This document shows, one piece after another, positions 39,390 to 41,799 of a DNA stretch of 60,165 bases. The stretch is taken from IMG/VR virus record IMGVR_UViG_3300018405_000021, positions 1 through 60,165 of that record. One strand, written 5' to 3'. Under the pieces are notes generated by a model. The model was given only the letters and a program-made list of their open reading frames with translations. It was not told where the DNA came from and did not search any database. The DNA is from a virus. Each line of letters starts with the position of its first letter. Within the stretch, counting starts at the first letter, position 1. Position numbers and translations under genes: made by a program.

Positions 39390-40874
39390 ATGGCAACTGG
39401 TCTTAACGTCAACAATGTCGTGCGGGTTTCGATCAATCTCAGCCCGACCGCAGCCGCCACCCGTGACTTCGGCGCGCTTCTCATCATCGGCCCAACGGAC
39501 GTTATTGATGTGTCTCAGCGCATCCGGTCTTATTCCGATCTGGACGGCGTGGCGGCTGATTTCGGAACCACCGTCCCGGAATACTACGCGGCAAGCCTGT
39601 TCTTTTCGCAGTCGCCGCAGCCCGCAATCCTCTACATCGGTCGATGGGCGCAAACCGCTACCAAGGCAGTGCTTAACGGTGGCGTTCTGACCGCTGCCGA
39701 ACAGCTTATGCCCGCGTGGACCACGATCACGGCAGGCTCTTTCAAGATCACGGTTGATGGCACGGTCAAGACGCTGACGGCCCTCGATTTCAGCGCCCAG
39801 ACGAACCTCAATGGCGTTGCATCGGTCATCACTACGGCACTCGCCACGGCAACTTGCGTCTGGGATGCGACCAGCAACAAGTTCACGATCCGAAGCAACT
39901 CGACCGGCGCGACTTCGACGCTTAGCTACGCCACTCCGCACACGACGGGAACGGATATTTCGGGGCTTCTCAAGCTGACAGAAGCTACCGCGTCCGCTCC
40001 CGTCGCCGGTATCGCGGCTGAGACGCTTGCCAGCGCCATGGCGACGTTCGCGAATATCTCGTCTGACTGGTACGGCATCACCGTTGCCAGCGCCACGACG
40101 CCAGCCGATAACGAGATTATCGATGCCGCCGCGTTCATTGAGGGCGCGTCAGTCTCGCATATCTTCGGGATCACGCTGACCAGCACCACCGCCCTTGACG
40201 GCACGATCACGAATGACTTGCCGAGCCTGCTTAAAGCCGCTGGCTACAAGCGCACCACGACGCAATATTCATCGTCTTCGCGTTACGCCGTGGCCTCCAT
40301 GATCGGTCGAGCATTCACCGTCGATTTCACGGCGAACAACACCACGATCACGCTCAAGTTCAAGCAGGAACCGGGCGTCACCGCCGAAACGCTCACGCAG
40401 ACGCAGGCGAACGCGCTGGACGGCAAGAACGTCAACTATTTCGTCAACTATGCCAACGACACCGCGATCATCCAGCAGGGGGTCATGGCGAACGGGTACT
40501 TCTTTGACGAAGTGCACGGGACGGACTGGCTGCAAAACTACATCCAGACGGGGGTCTATAACCTCCTCTACCAGTCCACGACGAAAATCCCGCAGACCGA
40601 CGCGGGTGTGAACCAAATTGTGAACGCTATCGACGCTTGCCTGTCTCAAGCTGTGAACAATGGATTGGTGGCCCCCGGCGTATGGAACGCTGGCGGGTTT
40701 GGCGAACTGTCTCAGGGCGACACGCTGGAAACCGGCTACTACATCTATGCGCCGAAGGTCGCCACGCAGAGCCAGAGTGATCGTGAGGCCCGCAAGTCGC
40801 CCACGATCCAGGTTGCAGTCAAGCTCAGTGGAGCCGTCCACAGCGTTGACGTACAACTAGATGTCAACAGGTAG
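39390..40874 (+). CDS. contractile tail sheath (DUF3383-like)
   Basis: A 494-residue protein with VVRVSINLSPTAAATRDFGAL at the start, DEVHGTDWLQNYIQTGVYN in the middle and GYYIYAPKVATQS near the end, closing with SGAVHSVDVQLDVNR, matching DUF3383 sheath proteins. It wraps the tail tube and contracts on infection, which makes this phage a myovirus. Confidence 0.9.
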   Translation: MATGLNVNNVVRVSINLSPTAAATRDFGALLIIGPTDVIDVSQRIRSYSDLDGVAADFGTTVPEYYAASLFFSQSPQPAILYIGRWAQTATKAVLNGGVLTAAEQLMPAWTTITAGSFKITVDGTVKTLTALDFSAQTNLNGVASVITTALATATCVWDATSNKFTIRSNSTGATSTLSYATPHTTGTDISGLLKLTEATASAPVAGIAAETLASAMATFANISSDWYGITVASATTPADNEIIDAAAFIEGASVSHIFGITLTSTTALDGTITNDLPSLLKAAGYKRTTTQYSSSSRYAVASMIGRAFTVDFTANNTTITLKFKQEPGVTAETLTQTQANALDGKNVNYFVNYANDTAIIQQGVMANGYFFDEVHGTDWLQNYIQTGVYNLLYQSTTKIPQTDAGVNQIVNAIDACLSQAVNNGLVAPGVWNAGGFGELSQGDTLETGYYIYAPKVATQSQSDREARKSPTIQVAVKLSGAVHSVDVQLDVNR

Positions 40875-40957
40875 TCGGCGGCGCTCAAGCATACGTCAAC
40901 GCAACACTCCGGTATCACGGCGACTTCGCCTACGCCGCCAGCCGATAGGAGGCTACC

Positions 40958-41398
40958 ATTAGCACGTACTCTTTTCTCGACGTAACCGCTGCGATCAGCG
41001 GCCCCGGTGGGTCGATCAACATCGGCAATAGCGCCGGTCCTTCCGACGAAGGTATCACGGTGTCGATGATCGACAACAAGAACACCATGACCATCGGCGC
41101 GGACGGCTCCGGCATGCACAGCCTTCATGCCGGTAATGCGGGCACGATTACGATCCGCCTTCTGAAAACGTCCCCGACGAATAAGAAGCTCCAGCAGATG
41201 TATTCGTATCAGGTGACGAGTTCCGCCAACCATGGGCGGAATACGATCACGATCCGCGACGTTGCTCGTGGGGATTTCGTAACAGCGACCGGCGCTGCTT
41301 TCCGCAAAATGCCCGACAATGCGTGGGGCAAGGAAGGCAACATGATCGAATGGTCATGGGATTGCATCAAGGTCGCCCAGAAGCTGGGGGCTAACTGA
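40958..41398 (+). CDS. tail tube protein, apparent ATT start
   Basis: Homologues begin MSTYSFLDV; the same residues are encoded here but the first codon is ATT (40958), five bases after AGGAGG (40947-40952). An in-frame TAG at 40946-40948 excludes any longer start, and the first ATG (41060) would remove 34 conserved residues. Core segments NTMTIGADGSGMHSLHAG and NTITIRDVARGD fit myovirus tube proteins. 146 residues. Confidence 0.85.
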   Translation: MSTYSFLDVTAAISGPGGSINIGNSAGPSDEGITVSMIDNKNTMTIGADGSGMHSLHAGNAGTITIRLLKTSPTNKKLQQMYSYQVTSSANHGRNTITIRDVARGDFVTATGAAFRKMPDNAWGKEGNMIEWSWDCIKVAQKLGAN

Positions 41399-41799
41399 TG
41401 GCAGAGTTTGAGGTAGGCGGCCATACCTACCGCACCGGAAAACTGAGCGCCATGAAGCAAATTCATGTCGCCCGGAAGATCGCGCCATTGTTCGCCGCCG
41501 TCCCCGGCATTCTGTCCCGCCTCAATGAAGGCGTGGCGGCTCTAAAGCCCGTCCTTGAGGAAATGGCTGGCATGTCTTCCGACGATTTGGATTTCGTCGT
41601 TAAGGAATGCATGTTGACCGCATACCGCAAGGACGGAAGTGACTGGCAGCGCGTGTGGGTCGAAGGGTCTGATAGTCCGATGTATGAAGACATCGACGGG
41701 CCGCAAATCCTGCAAATCGTCCAGCGCGTGGTCATGGAAAACCTCGGCCCTTTTATGCGCGCCGTCCCGCAAAGTTCGAACGATATTCCGGGGCTGTAA
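41398..41799 (+). CDS. tail assembly chaperone, G-like product
   Basis: A 133-residue protein placed between the tube and tape measure genes, the usual site of tail chaperones: FEVGGHTYRTGKLSAMKQ, later SSDDLDFVVKECM. The downstream -1 frame (to 41990) continues in the same style, suggesting a frameshifted longer form. Confidence 0.8.
   Translation: MAEFEVGGHTYRTGKLSAMKQIHVARKIAPLFAAVPGILSRLNEGVAALKPVLEEMAGMSSDDLDFVVKECMLTAYRKDGSDWQRVWVEGSDSPMYEDIDGPQILQIVQRVVMENLGPFMRAVPQSSNDIPGL

Follow-up and report, generated by a model that had tools for sequence, protein, structure and literature searches.

The tail-tube gene of the window, a virus contig of 60,165 bases analyzed as a whole (IMG/VR record IMGVR_UViG_3300018405_000021), probably begins with a genuine AUU start codon at 40958 of the infC/pcnB class, where fMet would be placed at AUU and a strong Shine-Dalgarno (SD) sequence followed by a weak codon would give the tube an independent and damped initiation. 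The observations behind this reading are the anatomy of the start, selection at the protein level, the recurrence of such starts among tube genes, their restriction to AUU, AUC, and AUA (AUH; ATH in the DNA), and a raw association with sheath-tube junctions that are widened or interrupted.

Gene neighborhood and anatomy of the start

The tube gene and its surroundings include the following features.

39390-40874, + strand: tail sheath gene (DUF3383), ATG start, stop TAG at 40872-40874; PF11863, E 7e-157; PHROG 205 tail sheath
40875-40957, + strand: sheath-tube junction of 83 nt, from the sequence; 18-19 nt in the nearest two relatives
40946-40948, + strand: in-frame TAG that forbids a start further upstream, from sequence and translation
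40947-40952, + strand: Shine-Dalgarno AGGAGG, 5-nt spacer to ATT, duplex energy -10.2 kcal/mol
40958-40960, + strand: ATT, probable start codon, from sequence, translation, relatives, and selection
40958-41398, + strand: tail-tube gene, 146 codons plus TGA; PF11681, E 1e-56
41060-41062, + strand: GTG, first canonical start in the tube frame; selection on the preceding codons rejects it as the gene start
41398-41799, + strand: tail assembly chaperone gene; PF21822, E 4e-21; PHROG 1688

The order of sheath, tube, tail chaperone, and tape measure is that of the PF11681 tail-tube family, and the tube stop and the chaperone ATG have one base in common (TGATG). The tube protein matched PF11681 (KPP10_Orf10, DUF3277) over its full length, with residues 1-143 on profile positions 2-144 and 191 bits against a cut-off (gathering score) of 25, and it also matched PHROG 280. 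The solved tube of phage Pam3 (8hdr, E 5e-8) was matched from residue 2 on; this match and conservation in the family were the basis for assessing what the N-terminal residues do. The 60,165-base record encodes no tRNA genes and no IF3 homologue; hence, a phage-encoded IF3 or tRNA was rejected as part of the system.

Positions 40940-40980 read AGCCGATAGGAGGCTACC ATT AGC ACG TAC TCT TTT CTC GAC, where the spacer between AGGAGG and ATT is CTACC (5 nt). After the TAG stop, the tube frame translates as EATISTYSFLDVTAAISGPGG..., given a second time as EATISTYSFLDVTAAISGPGGSINIGN... No in-frame ATG, GTG, or TTG occurs between the TAG at 40946-40948 and the GTG at 41060, and no such codon can therefore yield the conserved N-terminus. 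The initial annotation had confined the start to the stretch before 41060 on the basis of this TAG and the conserved N-terminus, with coordinates that proved exact, and the perfect AGGAGG that it placed five bases ahead of the ATT agrees with the sequence. Its description of the residues after ATT as the usual beginning of a tube protein was borne out by the PF11681 match from residue 1 and the presence of the conserved first residues.

Other signals were sought around the leader. Its folding was no better than that of shuffles (z 0.16, 0.42, 0.09, and -1.25) and it had no Rfam match, so that an RNA structure or known RNA element in the leader was rejected. No promoter-like site was recognized ahead of the tube, and no + strand terminator-like site was seen at the leader. 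The tube frame is also open upstream of the TAG, at 40877-40948 (GGAQAYVNATLRYHGDFAYAASR, then the stop), and the TAG overlaps the SD. In L104, a lineage with an ATA start, PAVNR and a stop lie at the same place and resemble a sheath C-terminus; the open frame in the window may be left over from a former gene end.

The 33 codons from the ATT to the GTG at 41060 have evolved as coding sequence. Compared with L003, a relative whose tube (86% protein identity) starts with ATG, 17 of them carried a synonymous and two a non-synonymous change (dN 0.11, dS 2.0), against a dN of 0.14 and a dS of 2.1 in the remainder of the gene, and the comparison with L064 over these codons was similar. The same codons hold the family-invariant residues Y3, S4, F5, D7, G22, and I32. 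This pattern of substitutions indicates that the segment is translated and that the tube gene begins before 41060. A start at the GTG, which would leave the tube without its first 34 codons, has in its favor that it is the first canonical in-frame start; it is nevertheless barely conceivable, as purifying selection acts on the 33 codons ahead of it, all six invariant residues lie before it, and the Pam3 match begins at residue 2. It was rejected on the selection on the preceding codons.

Recurrence of AUH starts among tube genes

The nearest relatives of the window, L003 and L064 (85-86% identical), have ATG at the homologous codon and the same N-terminus. Homology searches yielded 98 distinct tube genes whose N-termini could be read; five of these lacked a usable ATG, GTG, or TTG at the conserved start. 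All five had ATH, namely ATT in the window, ATA in L104/L108, and ATC in L008, L041, and L049. A pattern scan of the full IMG/VR for an SD, ATH, and the tube N-terminal motif added five lineages (L220, L221, L245, L252, and L255), and ATH-start tube genes were thus found in 12 contig stretches representing 10 distinct lineages, with ATT, ATC, or ATA behind a Shine-Dalgarno. No tube gene starting with CTG, AAG, ACG, or AGG was found by the same pattern scans. Since errors in or random mutations of ATG should give these four codons about as often as ATH, the probability of ten ATH out of ten is ~2e-4 under equal rates. In L104 and L108, 166 of 5,447 bases differ, while the ATA start codon and the 72-nt leader are identical.

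Genes without a canonical start were absent among the sheath genes (0 of 138) and chaperone genes (0 of 173) of the same loci. In the homology-gathered set, such starts occurred in 5 of 96 tube genes against 0 of 172 controls (p=0.006, treating related sequences as independent), although the sheath and chaperone genes are closely packed in the window, and these controls therefore cannot separate being a tube gene from being an uncoupled gene as the cause. The tube start was ATG in all 12 named phages examined, and PF11681 matches in bacterial genomes amounted to a handful among ~780, too few for rates. On a tree of 170 tube proteins, nine changes were needed to explain ATH, five of them forced by well-supported branches, indicating that the trait changed several times.

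The start at ATT put forward in the initial annotation is thus supported by the selection on the 33 codons, the conserved N-terminus, and the homologous codon of the relatives, for which the comparison it had called for returned ATG in L003 and L064 and AUH codons in other lineages. Its surprise at such a start in a virion gene is answered in part by the recurrence of AUU, AUC, and AUA in 10 distinct tube lineages.

Two further contigs, L002 and L004, came from separate assemblies of the IMG metagenomes 3300018412 and 3300018411, respectively. L002 had the same DNA including the ATT, with no differences in 3,557 nt, and L004 had the same ATT, with three differences in 6,435 nt. Both probably sample the same phage population as the window, so that their agreement is better evidence against a one-off base error than for evolutionary conservation. 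That nine other lineages have AUU, AUC, or AUA in this position likewise points to a genuine means of adjusting protein output rather than to a sequencing mistake. If the true ancestral codon were ATG and the ATT came from gene decay or from a mistake in sequencing or assembly, the ATG of both nearest relatives would fit, and L002 and L004, taken from sibling metagenomes, may have a single source. This explanation is highly improbable and was rejected, given that three contigs agree on ATT, that all ten lineages have ATH and none CTG, AAG, ACG, or AGG, and that the tube gene is intact and shows purifying selection.

Junction width, Shine-Dalgarno strength, and alternative readings

Most tube genes start with ATG, at a distance of ~8-20 nt from the sheath stop. 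Junctions of at least 25 nt were found in 8 of 9 ATH, 18 of 22 GTG/TTG, and 15 of 135 ATG genes, an excess over ATG with p=1e-6 for ATH and 3e-11 for GTG/TTG, where the p-values for junctions and for SD strength treat related sequences as independent. The homology-gathered set included 14 ATG, 15 GTG/TTG, and five ATH genes behind wide junctions, and 55 ATG, two GTG/TTG, and no ATH genes behind narrow ones. For example, the window combines ATT with an 83-nt junction, whereas its two nearest relatives have ATG and 18-19 nt. L104 has a 72-nt junction and ATA; the 17 bases CGATAGGAGGCTACCAT occur in both L104 and the window, despite a DNA identity of only 68% between the two phages. An exception is L245, where ATT follows a tight junction of 13 nt. 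Weaker starts were accompanied by stronger SDs: the median pairing energy was -6.4 kcal/mol for ATG and -10.2 kcal/mol for ATH, and start weakness correlated with SD energy among 96 genes (Spearman -0.57) as well as among the 34 decoupled genes with wide junctions alone (-0.49, p=0.003). Across well-supported branches, ~nine independent pairs were available for a weak start, of which 2.5 fit the junction trend, 0.3 opposed it, and ~6 showed no difference; with phylogeny controlled, the trend was not significant. The association of a weak start with a widened junction is no more than suggestive.

Part of the contigs with wide junctions carried inserted ORFs, named by eye. They included HNH-like ORFs antisense between sheath and tube (2242-2943 in L008, 2325-3017 in L041, and in L220; minus strand), proline-rich ORFs (L010, L011, L035, and L046), a GIY-YIG-like ORF (L137), and lysozyme-like ORFs (L036 and L043). 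The junction between sheath and tube appears to be a site of repeated insertion.

Because the tube protein is needed in quantity, a start codon with reduced initiation would be unexpected for it, except where its mRNA is abundant. In the AUU reading, the perfect SD five bases upstream would recruit 30S subunits to the near-cognate AUU, which would hold the initiator tRNA poorly. AUU and AUA starts with extended SDs gave ~10% of AUG output in S. aureus reporters (PMC13009471), and IF3 discriminates against AUU-type start codons (PMC5472188; PMC10158994). An intergenic distance near 20 nt nearly abolishes termination-reinitiation (PMC10666635). In the most economical reading, a tube gene without close coupling to the sheath stop may initiate independently from its strong SD, where the weak codon may keep the output down and the tube in proportion to the sheath; as a by-product, the gene is predicted to be IF3-sensitive. 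The broader proposal, that in this group of contractile-tail phages AUG was repeatedly replaced by AUU, AUC, or AUA with a near-perfect SD upon uncoupling from the sheath, and that this sets the tube-to-sheath stoichiometry and makes tube synthesis respond to host IF3, is unlikely.

The main rival is that the start codon makes little difference after a perfect SD, so that a weak one is neutrally tolerated; AUU would then be the true start, and ATG would have drifted to ATT with no role in dosage. Weak codons do accompany strong SDs, the window and L104 have a leader element in common with T and A, respectively, at the third base of the start, and the ATG of the nearest relatives implies that the change to ATT was recent. 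Neutral drift is harder to reconcile with the about tenfold cost of AUU and AUA in published reporters even with an extended SD (PMC13009471), with sheath and chaperone genes that never drift to AUH, and with the concentration of AUH starts in wide junctions, and it is considered rather unlikely. A coupling of the tube through a 33-codon leader ORF at 40861-40962 would also make the codon matter less, as a terminating ribosome would restart at the AUU. This ORF begins inside the sheath end, and its TAG overlaps the last base of the ATT, a one-base overlap being a common coupling geometry (PMC10666635); in L104, too, a short ORF ends over the ATA start, but its frame is a different one. Yet the ATG of the leader ORF has no clear SD ahead, its product is Arg-rich, its frame is not conserved, and a stop overlapping the start is absent in most ATH lineages, all of which make such coupling quite improbable.

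Comparison with known systems

Few genes are recognized with AUU, AUC, or AUA starts, partly because gene callers disallow them. Callers limited to ATG, GTG, and TTG would begin the tube at the GTG at 41060 or later and lose 34 codons. AUH-start tube genes would accordingly be annotated 34 codons short or missed, and they are probably mis-annotated elsewhere too. The tube family, with ATG, GTG, TTG, and AUH at one homologous codon, also forms a natural comparative set for studying the trade-offs among start codon, SD strength, and gene coupling. If confirmed, the AUU start would be an instance of a structural gene operating from a codon whose initiation is about tenfold lower in published reporters.

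AUU-type starts are already known from infC, pcnB, and cvfC1. A search of the open-access literature, with subscription papers outside its scope, found no tail-tube gene previously reported with an AUH start and no precedent for their repeated occurrence at one homologous position of a virion structural gene. In the window, features of this class are the lack of a canonical start for the conserved N-terminus and the SD at 5-nt spacing. The DUF3277/PF11681 (KPP10 Orf10) tube genes of named phages have the same family and gene order, but they lie close behind the sheath stop and start with ATG. In E. coli, AUU is read as fMet and limits initiation in infC, which encodes IF3 (PMC5472188), and pcnB is cited in PMC13009471 as an AUU-start gene in which the codon limits initiation. 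Both are host genes kept low or autoregulated, whereas the tube is a phage virion protein in a record without an IF3 gene. In Streptomyces sigR, a non-canonical GTC start, repressed by IF3, lowers translation (PMC5472188), but sigR is a regulator gene with another codon, and IF3 control has been demonstrated in it. The S. aureus genes cvfC1 (AUU), ccpN, and citZ (both AUA) have starts like those of the tube lineages, conserved and with strong extended SDs in cvfC1 and ccpN (PMC13009471). They differ in being Gram-positive chromosomal, non-virion genes for which no link to gene coupling has been described.
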